Part shown: piece by piece, positions 6,077 through 11,787 of the stretch
Layout: each line of letters opens with the position of its first letter
Numbering within the stretch: the first letter of the stretch is position 1
Source of the DNA: Paractinoplanes ferrugineus
Lineage (GTDB): Bacteria > Actinomycetota > Actinomycetes > Mycobacteriales > Micromonosporaceae
Assembly: GCF_016862195.1 (NCBI RefSeq)
Contig: NZ_BOMM01000038.1
Location: forward strand, 1-64,000
Length of the DNA stretch: 64,000 bases
Reading direction: 5' to 3'
Made by a program: the position numbers and the translations under genes
Notes under the pieces: generated by a model
Database searches by the model: none
Told to the model about the DNA's origin: nothing
The model's input: the letters and a program-made list of their open reading frames with translations, nothing else

Positions 6077-6664
6077 GTGCGACGTGGGCTGCTGCTGGTG
6101 GGCGTTCTGCTGCTCGGCGGCTGCGGGAAGTCCGGGACGGCCACCGCCACCGCGACCCCCGTGCCGTCGTCGACCGGCAAACCCTGGGTGATCACCACCC
6201 AGGGCAGTGCCACGCCGTCCGCCGCCCGGGGTGGCGTCTGGACCGCGACGACCAGCCCGTTCCCGTCCGGGTTCCTGCCCCTGCCGTCGAACCCGCCGGC
6301 CGCCACCGCCACCCCGTCGTGGCAGTGCACGCCGAACAACGGCCGCGGCACGATCGGCGGCGCCACCGTGGTGCCGGCCGGTACGAGTGCCGCGGTGACG
6401 TTCTTCAACCCGGGTGGCGTCAACCTGCTCCAGTTCCGGGTGACCGCCATCAACGAGGATCTGGTCACCGGCGCGCAGCGGGACGTCGGCTGGACCGTGG
6501 TCACTCCGGGGAAGGCCTGTGAGTACCAGACGGTCACGATCACCGGCCTGACCCCGAAGACCCACTACGTCTTCTCGGTCGACGCGGTCTGGTCCCAGGT
6601 GGGCGGCAACGACGGCACGAACGCGGCCACGATCGCGCGCTCGGGCGTCATATCAACGACCTGA
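6077..6664 (+). CDS. Lipoprotein with fibronectin III-like domain
   Basis: 195 aa. The N-terminus MRRGLLLVGVLLLGGC is a lipoprotein signal with the lipobox LGGC, Cys about 16. A Thr/Ala/Pro-rich linker follows to about residue 80. The C-terminal about 110 residues read as a fibronectin type III-like beta sandwich (TVTITGLTPKTHYVFSVDAVW is a typical F-G region). It should be anchored on the outer face of the membrane. It begins 31 bases after the EcsC-family gene and may be co-transcribed. Its end overlaps the convergent reductase gene by 17 bases. No enzymatic motif. Confidence 0.75.
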   Translation: MRRGLLLVGVLLLGGCGKSGTATATATPVPSSTGKPWVITTQGSATPSAARGGVWTATTSPFPSGFLPLPSNPPAATATPSWQCTPNNGRGTIGGATVVPAGTSAAVTFFNPGGVNLLQFRVTAINEDLVTGAQRDVGWTVVTPGKACEYQTVTITGLTPKTHYVFSVDAVWSQVGGNDGTNAATIARSGVISTT

Positions 6665-7484
6665 CCGGCGCCCAGCCGGCTCGCCGGGCCTTGCCGATGT
6701 CCAGCACCATCCCGTCGGTGACCTGATCGATGCTGTACCGGGTGAGCCGCTGCCCGGCGACCAGCGACGCGGCCCGCGCCAGCCCGACCGGCACGTGCCG
6801 CACCGGCACCCCCAGGACCGCCTCGACGGCGGCGTCGCGCCGGTAGACCCGCTCGTCGGCGATGTTGTAGGCGCCGGCCGGCCATCCGATCGCGGCCAGG
6901 CACGCCGACCCGAGGTTCTCCACGGCGGTCAGGCTGAGCGGCACGTCCGGTCCGGGGAGCCAGGCGTGGCCGCCGCGCACGATCCGCCGCAGCCGCGGCA
7001 GCAGGTGCGGGTCACCGGCGCCGTAGACCGCGCGCGGCCGCAGCACGACCGCACCGGCCGCGAGCGCGAGCTTCTCGCCCGCCGATTTGGTACGCCCGTA
7101 GGCCGTGCGCTGCCGCTCGACCGGGTGGTCCTCGCGAACCGGGGAGGTGTACGGCCCCGGCCGGTAGACGCTCGCACTGCTGACCCAGACGACCGGCCTG
7201 CCGCCCGCGGCCGCCAGAAGCCGTTGCGTGCCGCCGACGTTCACCGCGTGAAAGGCCGCCTCGACACGCTTGCCGCCGGCCGGATCGCCGACCGCCGCGG
7301 CCAGGTGGATCACCGCGTCCACCCCGGACAGATCGGGGTGGCCCGAGCTCGCATCCCAGTAGCGGTGCCGCCGGCCGGGCCCGGCCCGGCGCCCGAGACC
7401 GACGACGTCGGCTCCGCTGTCCGCGGCGAGCCGCGCCACCACACCACCGCAGAAGCCACTGGCTCCGGTCACCGCTATCCGCAT
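6648..7484 (-). CDS. NAD-dependent epimerase/dehydratase, OleD-like 2-alkyl-3-oxoalkanoate reductase candidate
   Basis: 278 aa, extended SDR. The dinucleotide site is TGASGFCGG (6-14) and the catalytic pair is in the YGRTK motif, with SSASVYRPG supplying the Ser. It is the last gene of the minus-strand cluster that starts at 11787. In ole pathways the SDR OleD reduces the beta-keto acid made by OleA, and the neighbourhood makes that role attractive here, but the sequence alone only shows a sugar-epimerase/3-beta-HSD-like SDR. It is shorter than typical OleD (about 330 aa). It is separated from the P450 gene by 55 bases. Confidence 0.75.
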   Translation of the reverse strand: MRIAVTGASGFCGGVVARLAADSGADVVGLGRRAGPGRRHRYWDASSGHPDLSGVDAVIHLAAAVGDPAGGKRVEAAFHAVNVGGTQRLLAAAGGRPVVWVSSASVYRPGPYTSPVREDHPVERQRTAYGRTKSAGEKLALAAGAVVLRPRAVYGAGDPHLLPRLRRIVRGGHAWLPGPDVPLSLTAVENLGSACLAAIGWPAGAYNIADERVYRRDAAVEAVLGVPVRHVPVGLARAASLVAGQRLTRYSIDQVTDGMVLDIGKARRAGWAPVRSLI

Positions 7485-7539
7485 GCTTGCCCACCCGCCT
7501 TCTCGACGCCGCTCACCGGCTGTCCGGTCGTTTCGGCGG

Positions 7540-8610
7540 TCACCGGGCGCGCACGATCAGGGAGCGCCAGCCCGGCAGTGCCGAGTGGCGGTCGGCCCGG
7601 GCCCGGACGACGACCGGGCGGTGCGGGGCGAGAGCGGCGAGGAAGTCGGTCATCTGGTGGCGGGCCAGGCGGGCACCCGGGCAGGCGTGCGGGCCGGCGC
7701 CGAAGACCAGCTGGGCGGTGCGGGCGGGAGCCGGGTCGGCCGGGTCGGGAGCACGGCGGTGGGCGTCGACGGCATGCCGGGTGATCAGCAGCATGCGGTC
7801 ACCGACGTGCACCGGGCAGCCGTCGAGAGCACCGCCGGCGGCGGCCACGCGAGGCAGGAGCGGGGTGGGCGCGGTGACGCGCAGCAACTCGTCGGCGAGG
7901 GCCGGGTCTTGCGCGTACGCCCACAGGTCCGCACTTCGGCAAGCCCACGCCGCGGCCCGGGGGAGCGCGGCGACGGTGGTGTTCACCGCGGCCACGGCGA
8001 GGGTGGCAGCCAGCCCGCTCGGCGCCGGTCCGTGCTCGACGAGCGTCAGCAGGTGCCACGCCGCCCGCTCGGCCTCTCGTTCGCCGTGCCGGCGGCGGCG
8101 CGGGCCGGGCCGGTGGGACCGCACGGCCGTGGCTCCGACCTGCTGGGCGGCGGCGGCCAGGGTCAGCGGGTCGATCGTCAGATCCAGCAGGGCGGCCGCG
8201 GTGGTTCCGGCGATCTCCGCGGCGACCGGCACGAGATCCACGCTCCCGCCCCGGGCGAGTGGCGCCAGGCGCTCGTCGATCACCTCGCGCCAGAGCGGGC
8301 GCAGCCGCTCGACGCCGGCGGCGCCCAACCGCTCGGCCACGTCGCGGCGGGCCTGCCGATGGGCGTCGCCCTGCTGGTCGAACAGGCCACCGGAGCCGGC
8401 CAGCCGGTCGACGGCCCCGCCGGTGGTGCCGGTGGCGGTCCGGTCGAGCGGGATCCGGGTCAGGGCGGTGACGACCGCCTCGCGGTCGTGGACAAGCACG
8501 GTTCGCCCGATCCGGAGCACCGGCCGGCGCCGGGTGGCGGCCAGCAGACCGAACAGGATCGGGTGACTGCGCAGGTAGACCCGCCGGTCGAGGGCTCGGG
8601 AGGCGCTCAC
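7540..8610 (-). CDS. Cytochrome P450, short and atypical
   Basis: 356 aa, against about 400 for most bacterial P450s. The heme-binding loop FGAGPHACPG is intact (Cys 310) and the K-helix ExxR is ELLR (241-244). The I-helix region reads AVAAVNTT (about 205-212): the usual acid before Thr is Asn 210, so proton delivery for oxygen activation may differ. The N-terminus lacks a membrane anchor, as expected for bacteria. GTG overlaps the preceding ligase stop (GTGA), showing translational coupling within the cluster. It probably oxidises the cluster's alkyl product; the substrate is unknown. Confidence 0.82.
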   Translation of the reverse strand: MSASRALDRRVYLRSHPILFGLLAATRRRPVLRIGRTVLVHDREAVVTALTRIPLDRTATGTTGGAVDRLAGSGGLFDQQGDAHRQARRDVAERLGAAGVERLRPLWREVIDERLAPLARGGSVDLVPVAAEIAGTTAAALLDLTIDPLTLAAAAQQVGATAVRSHRPGPRRRRHGEREAERAAWHLLTLVEHGPAPSGLAATLAVAAVNTTVAALPRAAAWACRSADLWAYAQDPALADELLRVTAPTPLLPRVAAAGGALDGCPVHVGDRMLLITRHAVDAHRRAPDPADPAPARTAQLVFGAGPHACPGARLARHQMTDFLAALAPHRPVVVRARADRHSALPGWRSLIVRAR

Positions 8611-10061
8611 GCGGTGGCCGCCAGGCGGGCGGTGGCGGCGCGGTCGGGTTTGCGGGACCGGCCGGCCAGCGGGATCGGGGCGAACACGACCCGGTCCGGA
8701 CGGGCCGCCCCCATCCGGGACAGCGGCTCACGCAGGGCGGCGCGGATCTCAGGTTCGCCGGCGTTCGCGGCGGGCTGGATGACGGCCACCACGCGCTCGT
8801 CGCCGTCCCCCGCCGGGACGCCCACCAGCAGCGCCAACTCCACGCCGGGTACGTGCAGCGACGGCTCGTAGAGGCCCGGATAGATGTTCTCGGCCCCGCG
8901 CAGGATCATGTCCTTGAGGCGGCCGCCCAGGATGACCCGCCCGTTCTCGACCCGGCCCAGGTCGCCGGTTCGGACCGCGGCGAAGGGCTCCTCGCCCAGA
9001 TAGCGGTCCGCCGCCGTCGGCCCCGACAGCAGCAGCTCACCGTCCGCCCCCGCACCTTCAGCCGACGGCTCGGTGGGTGCCGGGGACACTGCCGCTGTCA
9101 CGCCGGGCAGCAGGGTGCCGATCAGGTCGCCCGCACCGGTGAAGGCGGACTTCTCGGCGTACTCGACAGCGGCGGCGGGGAAGACCTCGGTCAGGGCGTA
9201 GACGCCCCACGCCTCGTCGGCGCCGGCCGCGCGTACGGCCCGCAGCAGGCCGGCGCTCACCGGGGCGGACCCGCTGTAGACGCGGCCGGTGAAGCGGACC
9301 CCGGCGGCCAGGGCGGCGCGCAGCTGCGGGGGCGTCAGATAGGTCGCCTGCGGCGTCAGGTTCCGGATCTGCCGGGCCAGGCCGCGGCGGGCCGGCAGGG
9401 CCACCGGGGCGCCGGCGGCCAGCGACGGCAGCAGGACGAAGAAGGTGCCGCCCAGCACCGGCACGCCGGGGACCGGGCGGACCAGGTCGCGTACCGCGGT
9501 CATACCGGCCGACAGCGAGCCGCGGGTGTGCACGACGGCGCGGGGGCGGCTGGTCGTGCCCGAGGTGAAGACGATCACCGCGTCGCCGTCGCCGTCGAAG
9601 CCCGGGGGGAGCGGACCGGGCTTGGGGCGCAGCGGTGGCGGAGCGCCGGGCAGGCGGCGGCCGATCGTGCGGACCGGGGCCAGGCCGCTCAGGGCGGGCA
9701 GCGCGAGGTGGGCGCGGCGGGCCAGCGGCGCCAGCCGGCCGGCCACCGCCTGGGCGGCGGCGTCGGCCAGGATCAGCCGCGGGGCGGCCAGGGCGAGGCG
9801 GGCCGAGAGCACGTCCGGGCCGGCGGTCGGGTCGAGCACGGCGATGCGCAACCCCAGGTGGTACGCGGCGAGCAGGGTGGCCAGCGAGCGCGCTCCCGGG
9901 CGTACCGCCAGACCGATGGTGTCCCCGGCGACCAGCCCGGCCGAACGCAGCGCCACGGCGTAGCCGTGCGTGAGAGTGGCCAGCTCGCCGCGAGTCGCCC
10001 GGCCGGCCAGAGCCGGTCGGTCGTCGCCCTCGCGGAGGCCGCCGATGAGGTCGGTGAGCAT
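8607..10061 (-). CDS. Class I adenylate-forming enzyme, OleC-like / acyl-CoA synthetase-like
   Basis: 484 aa. The phosphate-binding loop is FTSGTTSRPRAVVH (about 165-178), and YALTEVFPAA is in the position of the YGxTE motif. RTGDLG and GRLKDMILRGAENI are the hinge motifs, and Lys 471 (RKPDRA) is in the catalytic-lysine position. The family activates carboxylates with ATP; in ole pathways OleC instead closes a beta-hydroxy acid to a beta-lactone. The TE-hydrophobic-Pro pattern and the neighbours favour OleC, but a plain fatty acyl-AMP/CoA ligase is possible. ATG at 10061 overlaps the glycosyltransferase stop by one base (TGATG). Confidence 0.8.
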   Translation of the reverse strand: MLTDLIGGLREGDDRPALAGRATRGELATLTHGYAVALRSAGLVAGDTIGLAVRPGARSLATLLAAYHLGLRIAVLDPTAGPDVLSARLALAAPRLILADAAAQAVAGRLAPLARRAHLALPALSGLAPVRTIGRRLPGAPPPLRPKPGPLPPGFDGDGDAVIVFTSGTTSRPRAVVHTRGSLSAGMTAVRDLVRPVPGVPVLGGTFFVLLPSLAAGAPVALPARRGLARQIRNLTPQATYLTPPQLRAALAAGVRFTGRVYSGSAPVSAGLLRAVRAAGADEAWGVYALTEVFPAAAVEYAEKSAFTGAGDLIGTLLPGVTAAVSPAPTEPSAEGAGADGELLLSGPTAADRYLGEEPFAAVRTGDLGRVENGRVILGGRLKDMILRGAENIYPGLYEPSLHVPGVELALLVGVPAGDGDERVVAVIQPAANAGEPEIRAALREPLSRMGAARPDRVVFAPIPLAGRSRKPDRAATARLAATA

Positions 10062-10795
10062 CAGCGCGGATCCGCCGAGAGAATGCCGCTGCCCTGGCCG
10101 AGGTACCACCGCGCGGTGCCGAGCACGCCGTAGGCCTTGATCCGGCGGGTGGAGTTGGCGACCACCATGCGGCGGCTGTGGACGATCGCCGGGGTGGTGC
10201 GGCGCACCCGGTTGAGGAACGTGCGGTCGGTCGGGGACGGGCGCCGGGGCATGCCGCCACAGGCCTCGTAGAGCTTCGCGGTGATCGCCATGTTGTTGCC
10301 GGCGTGCATCCGGTAGGGGGCCTTGAACTCGGGGCCGCGGTGCTCGGGCCGGAACCGGCCGAAACCGGCGGCTAGGGTCACGAGCAGGCGGAACCAGGCG
10401 CGGCCGAGCGGGCCGTGCTCGTCGCGGCGGGCCACCACGCGCCCGCATGCCAGGCCCCGGCCGTCGACCAGCGCCCGGCGGGCGGCCGCCACCCAGCCCG
10501 GGGCGGGCAGGCAGTCGGCGTCGGTGCGGGCCAGGTGCACGGCACCGTTGGCGATGGCGTGCCGGAACCCGGTGTCGACCGCGCAGCCGACCCCCTTCTC
10601 CGGCTCGATCAGCACGTGCACCGGGAACGGCGCGACGAGGCCGCGGGCGATCTCGGCGGTGGCATCGGCGGAGCCGTTGTCGACGACCAGGAGGGTGAAG
10701 TCGGTGTCGGTCTGCGCGGTCAGGGCGCGCAGCGTCTCGGTGATGCGGGCGGCCTCGTTGTAGGCCGGCACGATCACCCACAGCGGGGCGGTCAC
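10061..10795 (-). CDS. Family 2 glycosyltransferase
   Basis: 244 aa, GT-A fold. The N-terminal strand-loop VIVPAYNEAARITETL, LLVVDNGSADAT and the metal-binding TDAD (91-94) are the GT2 signatures. A following stretch (CGRVVARRDE, then MHAGNNMAI) fits the acceptor side. There is no membrane segment, so it should act in the cytoplasm. GTG at 10795 overlaps the stop of the condensing enzyme by four bases (GTGA). A glycosyltransferase inside an ole-type gene set is unusual and suggests a glycosylated lipid product. Donor and acceptor are unknown. Confidence 0.82.
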   Translation of the reverse strand: MTAPLWVIVPAYNEAARITETLRALTAQTDTDFTLLVVDNGSADATAEIARGLVAPFPVHVLIEPEKGVGCAVDTGFRHAIANGAVHLARTDADCLPAPGWVAAARRALVDGRGLACGRVVARRDEHGPLGRAWFRLLVTLAAGFGRFRPEHRGPEFKAPYRMHAGNNMAITAKLYEACGGMPRRPSPTDRTFLNRVRRTTPAIVHSRRMVVANSTRRIKAYGVLGTARWYLGQGSGILSADPR

Positions 10796-11787
10796 GAGAC
10801 CTCCCAGATCATCGTCATCAGGCTCACGCCGCCGCCCAGGCCGACCAGCAGCACCCGGTCGCCGGTCTCCAGCGTCGGCCGCACCCGGGCGAGCTGCACC
10901 CCGAGGGTCGCCGAGGCCATGTTGCCCAACTCGCCGACGGTCACCTCGAGCTTCTCCGGGGGTACGCCGGTGACCTGCACGAAGCGTTCCAGGTAGGGGA
11001 GCGACACCTGGTGGACGAGGACCTTGGCGTACGCGTCCCAGCCGTACCCGGTGCGCTTCGCCACCCGATCGAGCAGCCCGGCACCGATGGTCTCGAAGAT
11101 CCGGCGCAGCCGGTGCCCGTCGCCGGTGAAGTAGGTGTGCTCGTCGCCGCGCGGATGCCGCGAGCCGCCGCCGAAGATGCCGCCGGCCGCCCAGTGCTCG
11201 GAGTGGGTGTCGCCGTCCACGTCGAGGATGCCGCCGGTCGCGACCCTCTCGACGAGCACCGCCGCGCCGGCGTCGCCGAACGTGTAACCGGCGAACGCGC
11301 TGCGGGCCTGGGCGAGACCGTCGACCTTGGGACGCATCGCGCGGGTCGGGGTCTCGCCGGTGACCACCAGGGCGCGGGTGGCCCGGCCGGCCAGGATCAT
11401 CGAGCGGGCCAGGTCGATGCCGTTGAGGAAGCTGTTGCAGGCGTTCGTCACGTCCAGCGCGTGCGCCCGGCTGCCCAGCGCCGCCTGCACCACGTGCGCG
11501 GTGGCCGGCTCGGCCATGTCGCGGGTGGCGCTCGCGAACAGCAGCAGGTCGACGTCGAGCGGGTCGGTGCCGGTCTCCGCGAGAACTTTGGTGGCGGCGT
11601 CGACGGCCAGGTCCGACGCGTACTCGCCGGCGCTCGCCATCCGCCGCCGCCGGATGCCGGTGGCCTGTTCGAACATGCCCGGTGGCAATCTCAGTCCGCT
11701 GGCCAGCGCAACCTGGCGTTGCAGATCGGCCGTCGGCACCTCGCGGGCCGGCAGGGCGTACGCGATCCCGGTGATCCCCACATTCAT
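10792..11787 (-). CDS. KAS III / OleA-like thiolase-fold condensing enzyme
   Basis: 331 aa, the length of FabH and OleA. The nucleophile is Cys 117 in DVTNACNSFLNG, His 259 is in VLVHQVSLPYL, and Asn 289 is in ELGNMASATLG, so the Cys-His-Asn triad is complete. FabH makes the first acetoacetyl-ACP; OleA joins two fatty acyl-CoAs head to head. NAC rather than AAC at the nucleophile and the linked ligase and SDR favour a secondary-metabolism or OleA-like role over FabH. It is the first gene of the coupled minus-strand operon and is divergent from the antiporter across about 110 bases. Confidence 0.85.
   Translation of the reverse strand: MNVGITGIAYALPAREVPTADLQRQVALASGLRLPPGMFEQATGIRRRRMASAGEYASDLAVDAATKVLAETGTDPLDVDLLLFASATRDMAEPATAHVVQAALGSRAHALDVTNACNSFLNGIDLARSMILAGRATRALVVTGETPTRAMRPKVDGLAQARSAFAGYTFGDAGAAVLVERVATGGILDVDGDTHSEHWAAGGIFGGGSRHPRGDEHTYFTGDGHRLRRIFETIGAGLLDRVAKRTGYGWDAYAKVLVHQVSLPYLERFVQVTGVPPEKLEVTVGELGNMASATLGVQLARVRPTLETGDRVLLVGLGGGVSLMTMIWEVS

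Follow-up and report, generated by a model that had tools for sequence, protein, structure and literature searches.

Organization and conservation of the operon

The DNA analysed here (the window) is a stretch of 64,000 nucleotides from Paractinoplanes ferrugineus, positions 1 to 64,000 of contig NZ_BOMM01000038.1. Its positions 6648-11787 hold a compact operon of five minus-strand genes, about 5.1 kb in a genome of 9.4 Mb, which begins with a condensing enzyme of the OleA type:

10792-11787, minus strand: OleA-type ketosynthase III (KSIII), the first gene, 331 amino acids (aa)
10061-10795, minus strand: small family 2 glycosyltransferase (GT2), 244 aa
8607-10061, minus strand: AMP-ligase (ANL, adenylate-forming), 484 aa
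7540-8610, minus strand: short cytochrome P450, 356 aa
6648-7484, minus strand: extended short-chain dehydrogenase/reductase (SDR), 278 aa

A sequence-only reading of the window had described these genes and their overlapping junctions, and all of the open reading frames and junctions are present. The KSIII and GT2 genes share 4 bases (GTGA), the GT2 and ligase genes 1 (TGATG), and the ligase and P450 genes 4 (GTGA), and a gap of 55 bases separates the P450 from the SDR gene. Pfam matches across the five proteins are to ACP_syn_III domains, Glycos_transf_2, AMP-binding, p450 (weak) and Epimerase. No regulator or exporter gene lies inside the five-gene operon.

Gene order was compared across 100 gene-called loci, of which 93 were distinct after four duplicates and the loci L085, L089 and L090, where the gene caller missed the KSIII, had been dropped; from the scan of named genomes the best 80 of 204 loci were retained. 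The GT2 gene directly follows the KSIII gene in 86 of the 93 loci. The order KSIII-GT2-ligase-(GT2b)-P450-SDR, GT2b being a second GT2, recurs in 61 (the ligase call being split in two of them), and a rearranged order, KSIII-GT2-P450-ligase-SDR, in 9. Four loci are of the OleC type without GT2, and the other 19 are otherwise arranged, five as KSIII-GT2-unlabelled gene-ligase-SDR and the rest fused, partial or cut by a contig end. By tblastn, the full order occurs in Actinoplanes and its kin, Micromonospora, Kitasatospora, Streptomyces, Virgisporangium, Planosporangium and Nocardioides; the rearranged order is found mostly in Actinomadura and also in Spirillospora and Pseudonocardia. This recurrence across actinobacterial families bears out the proposal of a single conserved operon, with the P450 and the GT2 as members of it. 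Catalytic residues are conserved among the aligned relatives of all five proteins (length-filtered sets of 91 KSIIIs, 84 GT2s, 79 ligases, 77 P450s and 65 SDRs).

Of 67 genomes searched in the genus of the window, 60 have the KSIII (E <= 1e-60). In evenly drawn samples in which the window genome is counted, it was found in 7 of 298 genomes of the order and in 26 of 394 genomes of the class (E <= 1e-50); four of these 26 (G378, G445, G494 and G512) carry an OleA type adjoining a protein of about 2260 aa. The genes on either side of the operon in the window lie on the plus strand. These flanking genes accompany the cassette, as we call the operon and its relatives, in some Actinoplanes genomes, and L094 (Micromonospora pattaloongensis) and L062 share some of them; elsewhere the cassette is flanked by different genes. 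Because the surrounding genes differ between genomes, the cassette appears to be a unit of its own.

The condensing enzyme is of the OleA type

The nearest Protein Data Bank (PDB) match of the KSIII is 3fk5 (E 9e-29), deposited as '3-oxoacyl-synthase III' and here taken as Xanthomonas campestris OleA; 3h76, the PQS enzyme, follows closely (E 7e-28). Residues Cys117, His259 and Asn289 and the pair Glu93-Pro94 align with 3fk5, and all five are present in 91 of 91 relatives. The Glu that is a hallmark of OleA, where it is a base contributed by the partner subunit, is present in all 12 reference KSIIIs from ole-type clusters and all 24 cassette-type rows, and in none of five KSIII paralogues from the same genome. 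According to Smith et al. 2020 (PMC7064751), a Glu117-Pro pair is found in all but two of the OleA proteins surveyed, and the Glu was essential for condensation by X. campestris OleA. Two lipstatin-type reference KSIIIs that carry the Glu lack the Cys or the His, and the Glu alone is thus no proof of activity.

Among the NCBIfam models, PRK09258 fits the KSIII best, with 172 bits and a cut-off of 285. A model built from eight OleA-type proteins gave 262 bits for the window KSIII and 75-133 bits for the five paralogues. In the KSIII tree, cassette KSIIIs stand apart from the own-genome paralogues, which form their own clade (support 100/100), and cluster with the KSIIIs that adjoin OleC-family genes in L188-L191, L194 and L195 (92/91). 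On these sequence grounds, the KSIII is assigned to the OleA type by its residues and its place in the tree; the profiles alone would be insufficient. The earlier proposal that the condensing enzyme is OleA-like rather than FabH-like thus holds, and it does not group with the FabH-like paralogues of its own genome.

A housekeeping role as FabH is rejected on residues, tree and profiles, with support of 92/91 in the tree and small profile margins in places. The wider alternative, namely that ordinary FabH-like and acyl-CoA ligase genes lie side by side with no joint pathway, could draw on the matches of the KSIII to the FabH models PRK09352 (146 bits) and TIGR00747 (107 bits), both below their cut-offs. 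It is hardly credible in view of the gene order in 61 of 93 loci, the gene fusions described below, the OleA-type residues and the tree position.

A cluster of the same five genes in the same order, also without oleB, is already in print. Smith et al. 2020 (PMC7064751) list it for Actinoplanes atraurantiacus as OleA-GT-OleC-P450-OleD and, from gene context and the lack of oleB, predict a glycosylated beta-lactone; the product is predicted and unproven. Beyond PMC7064751, no description of the operon was found among the matches listed in open-licence literature. The sequence-only reading could not match the genes to a characterised pathway; the cluster is published, with a product that is only predicted. 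The proteins of A. atraurantiacus (L085) are 82, 78, 77, 58 and 71% identical to the window KSIII, GT2, ligase, P450 and SDR, respectively. The L085 KSIII is 82-83% identical to that of the window and 32% identical to 3fk5 over 303 aligned columns; PMC7064751 gives 29%. Presumably the A. atraurantiacus OleA expressed in that work is the L085 KSIII, and it is described there as active in an in vivo p-nitrophenyl ester screen (PMC7064751).

The ligase lies outside the OleC family

The ligase matches PF00501 (E 4e-32), its core adenylation motifs are intact, and Lys471 is present in 79 of 79 relatives. It was compared with an OleC family that is defined here by the model PRK09274 and by gene neighbours, lactone closure itself being putative for all members. 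Fourteen reference OleCs were taken from 296 class genomes with PRK09274 (E <= 1e-120); 12 of them exceed the cut-off of the model, and L194 and L195 are below it. The window ligase scores 62 bits against the cut-off of 478, and of the 53 matches to PRK09274 in its own genome, 19 score above it. As a positive control, the ligase of L112, a Micromonospora cluster with the same KSIII and P450, reached 557.6 bits. The curated beta-lactone synthetase models NF045786 (for the Xanthomonas olefin beta-lactone synthetase) and NF045785 have cut-offs of 900 and 850, which the L112 control also fails to reach, with 485 and 389 bits.

A custom OleC model, built from 10 sequences, gave 64 bits for the window ligase and 49-158 for 79 cassette-type ligases. 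Seven held-out OleC-family proteins scored 435-593 bits and the L061 protein 644. Eight other ligases from the own genome scored 96-175 bits, which is a strict comparison because these eight are the best PRK09274 matches of the genome. For 34 of the 79 cassette ligases, the OleC model gave a higher score than a generic model of six own-genome ligases. For the Actinomadura-type ligase of L139, PRK09274 is second-best at 121 bits, behind PRK06187 at 159. In a ligase tree of 50 rows, the 18 OleC-family proteins and the 23 cassette-type ligases each fall into a clade of their own (both 100/100). The tree splits three ways into OleC-family, cassette and other ligases, which would be compatible with a distant sister relationship between the cassette clade and OleC.

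By its PRK09274 score, its own-genome ranking, the tree and the custom model, the ligase is judged not to be an OleC. The 'OleC-like' label of the sequence-only reading has to be dropped, since the protein falls outside the OleC-family clade and its scores on OleC models do not exceed those of further adenylating enzymes from its genome. Because the adenylation motifs are kept, it looks like an active adenylating enzyme of a non-OleC kind.

This assignment bears on the glycosylated beta-lactone of Smith et al. 2020, for which OleA would carry out the condensation, the SDR a reduction and the P450 a hydroxylation, with a glycosylation step and, by the AMP-ligase, closure of the ring. Besides the prediction in PMC7064751, it is favoured by the absence of any detectable OleB in this genome either and by the Micromonospora clusters in which the same KSIII-P450 pair adjoins an OleC-family ligase and an OleD-like SDR. 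Its main support is lost, however, because the ligase is not OleC: the protein lies outside the OleC-family clade, and cassette ligases (49-158 bits) fall far from the held-out OleC-family proteins (435-593). No other OleC was found in the genome with a Micromonospora protein as query, nothing scoring above 87 bits. We regard a beta-lactone as unlikely, if still to be reckoned with.

Two further roles for the ligase were weighed. It might act at the front end, converting free fatty acid to acyl-CoA for the KSIII, the product then being a glycosylated keto or hydroxy compound. Its best NCBIfam models are the acyl-CoA ligases PRK06187 and PRK05852, and it has profile matches to the structures of MatB and FadD13, yet the fusion of GT2 and ligase in two genomes links it to the sugar step and not to the KSIII, and we think such a role rather improbable. 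It might also be an amide- or ester-bond synthetase that passes acyl-AMP directly to an amino group or sugar hydroxyl, to give an acylated sugar or an amide lipid. In the predicted ligase model (pLDDT 87.9), the nearest structure is McbA, with CahJ, MenE and others close; the top PDB matches of the model are two amide bond synthetases, McbA and one from S. hindustanus, and McbA (6sq8) is also among the top profile matches. The identity is only about 25%, the rank is possibly due to domain conformation in the model, and MatB and CahJ or MenE score about equally, which makes this role very improbable.

The SDR and the search for OleB

The best NCBIfam model of the SDR is that of OleD, NF042422, with 55 bits against a cut-off of 580, and the window SDR ranks third of 29 own-genome matches, two others being as high or higher. 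An OleD model gave 97 bits for the window SDR, 81-201 for cassette SDRs (median 127), 388-435 for held-out OleDs and 58-96 for five other own-genome SDRs; eight of the latter had been tried, and three were dropped where the start was not found by motif search. The SDR of L139 reaches 135 bits on NF042422, well ahead of the next models. In the SDR tree, cassette and Actinomadura-type SDRs form one clade (100/98) outside the OleD references, with long outgroup branches. Tyr129 and Lys133 are present in 65 of 65 relatives, and residue 103 is Ser in 53 and Thr in 12, consistent with the S/T-YxxxK motif. The SDR is probably at most a distant relative of OleD: the earlier 'OleD-like' label holds only loosely, OleD being the best NCBIfam model but with a score far below cut-off, and the protein lying outside the OleD references.

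The sequence-only reading had noted that OleB is missing from the window, and this extends to the genome, in which an OleB-position protein of L182, a cluster of the oleABCD type, used as query gave a best match of 47 bits. A protein was used as query because the NCBIfam cut-off is too strict for the OleB-position proteins themselves: on PRK03592 (cut-off 241), two of them score 156-157 bits, and the best protein of the own genome 76.

The P450 and the glycosyltransferase

The P450 scores 25.5 bits on PF00067, just over the cut-off of 22.8. Its AF2 model has a pLDDT of 93.4, and the structure matches are P450s, for example EryK and P450BioI. The heme ligand Cys310 is conserved in 75 of 77 P450s (with two gaps), Glu241 and Arg244 of the ExxR motif in 74 and 75, and Thr211 in all 77. 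Although short and divergent, the protein is thus modelled with high confidence as a P450, and its heme Cys and ExxR are conserved. A P450-derived glycosyltransferase activator (TIGR04515) was also considered; the P450s of L112 and L139 score 45 and 51 bits against a cut-off of 343, and this reading is rejected because the heme Cys is conserved. The I-helix position that normally holds an acid in P450s is Asn210 in the window protein. The acid is absent from all 62 cassette P450s (Asn in 51, Thr in 8, Ser in 2 and Ala in 1), and Glu stands at the same position in 11 of 11 Actinomadura-type P450s.

The GT2 matches PF00535 with 85 bits (E 6e-24) and has a DAD motif, both Asp residues of which are conserved in 84 of 84 relatives. 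It also occurs in fusion proteins: one partner is the ligase, in L136 of Thermomonospora catenispora (777 aa) and L237 (801 aa), and the other the P450, in L231 (652 aa). On the strength of these three fusions, sugar transfer would be part of the core pathway. The second GT2, GT2b, is about 53% identical to the first; 25 of 93 loci carry it between the ligase and P450 genes, and it is absent from the window operon. Six GT2b copies are long (480-590 aa), and all six have an N-terminal BrkB-type membrane domain, which fits with work on a lipid at the membrane. These BrkB-GT2 fusions lie between ligase and P450 in L101, L115, L122, L125, L131 and L132.

Related clusters with OleC-family ligases

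An OleC-family ligase adjoins the KSIII-P450 pair in Micromonospora L111, L112 (= L065) and L126 (= L064) and in L061 of the genus of the window. The same three Micromonospora loci continue with an OleD-like SDR, followed by a roughly 1000 aa protein that resembles a non-ribosomal peptide synthetase (NRPS). In L112, to which the domain scan was confined, Pfam assigns adenylation and carrier domains to this protein; a condensation-like HxxxDxxG was read by eye, and Pfam finds no condensation domain. An 871 aa protein follows the NRPS-like protein in L111, L112 and L126 (clusters from about 10000 onward). It is possible that these are lipstatin-type clusters with a single KSIII that share their first genes with the window operon.

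The KSIIIs of the OleC-type clusters in Micromonospora nest within the cassette KSIII clade. An OleA-type product can be argued for the window KSIII because KSIIIs nested in its clade serve OleC-family clusters. In the simplest reading, KSIII and P450 would make an oxidised OleA-type product, and the enzymes that accompany them would determine its fate, glycosylation with one set and aminoacylation plus lactonisation with the other.

Two other arrangements were observed. L188-L191 encode a protein of about 2260 aa (a polyketide synthase (PKS) by size only), followed by an OleA-type KSIII, an OleC-family ligase and OleD. L230 (3660-10240) holds a KSIII 51% identical to the Actinomadura-type form, a P450, an epimerase-type SDR 36% identical to the OleD of L112, along with glycosyltransferases of two kinds, GT21 and EryCIII-like.

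Predicted pathway

The genes, their order, the intact catalytic motifs, the OleA-type KSIII, the position of the ligase outside OleC and the GT2 fusions are shown by the sequence analysis, whereas all reactions, the order of the steps, the sugar and the end product are inferred. The product we favour, at roughly even chances, is a glycosylated, alpha-branched beta-hydroxy acyl lipid made by a stand-alone, OleA-initiated operon and not closed by OleC. The KSIII would join two acyl thioesters head to head to a 2-alkyl-3-keto acid, and the SDR would reduce the keto group to give the 2-alkyl-3-hydroxy acid. The P450 would oxidise the acyl chain and the GT2 attach a sugar. The ligase would adenylate the carboxylate, for acyl transfer to an acceptor or for acyl-CoA supply, rather than for closure of a beta-lactone. 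The interpretation in the sequence-only reading is partly supported: of the points by which it could have been refuted, the character of the KSIII and the conserved order stood, and a ligase of the OleC kind did not.

Several points weigh against the glycosylated hydroxy acyl lipid. A KSIII model made from two oleABCD OleAs only gave the window protein 102 bits and the paralogues 39-94, a small margin, and a model built from the paralogues ranks the cassette KSIIIs (129-172 bits) above the OleA references (99-127). In the tree, cassette KSIIIs group with PKS-linked OleAs (92/91, below the mark of 95) and not with the KSIIIs of oleABCD or lipstatin-type clusters. The purified A. atraurantiacus OleA precipitated and, with little protein available, gave no reaction with the acyl-CoAs tried, according to PMC7064751. 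The window SDR is level with the best other own-genome SDR on the OleD models, and neither P450 nor SDR adjoins the GT2-ligase fusion in L136 and L237. Finally, closure of a beta-lactone by a non-OleC adenylating enzyme would be compatible with the sequence.

Tentatively, the operon may represent a third way of ending OleA chemistry, in which the condensed beta-hydroxy acid is activated by a non-OleC ligase and, with the glycosyltransferase, yields a mycolate-like glycosylated lipid that would be near-universal in Actinoplanes. The KSIII-P450 pair would then be an exchangeable front module, combined with a sugar (GT2) here and with an amino acid (NRPS) and lactone closure (OleC) in Micromonospora. 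Given its presence in 60 of 67 genomes, the operon may serve to make a lipid with a structural or developmental role in the genus. The printed product prediction depends on calling the ligase OleC; should this assignment be wrong, a third outcome of OleA chemistry may exist besides olefins and beta-lactones. At about 5.1 kb, the operon is small enough for a direct test.

Comparison with known systems

The operon resembles oleABCD of Xanthomonas and Micrococcus in its OleA-type enzyme with Glu-Pro and Cys-His-Asn, its SDR and its adenylating enzyme. It differs in having neither OleB nor OleC, in an SDR outside the OleD references, in a KSIII outside the oleABCD branch and in the additional P450 and GT2. 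From the published A. atraurantiacus cluster it differs in interpretation: PMC7064751 calls the ligase OleC and predicts a beta-lactone, and the profiles and tree obtained here give no support to the OleC label.

The clusters L184 and L187, which we take to be lipstatin-type by comparison with the gene content of the lst cluster, have two KSIIIs, an OleC and an NRPS. Their OleCs share a branch with the ligases beside the KSIII-P450 pair in the three Micromonospora loci and L061, whereas their two KSIIIs belong to other branches and the window operon has a GT2 and a non-OleC ligase. Mycolate synthesis relies on Pks13, FadD32 and CmrA. The 2-alkyl-3-hydroxy acid intermediate proposed here would fall in the same chemical class as those of the corynomycolate and mycolic acid pathway, but the five genes of the window belong to other families.

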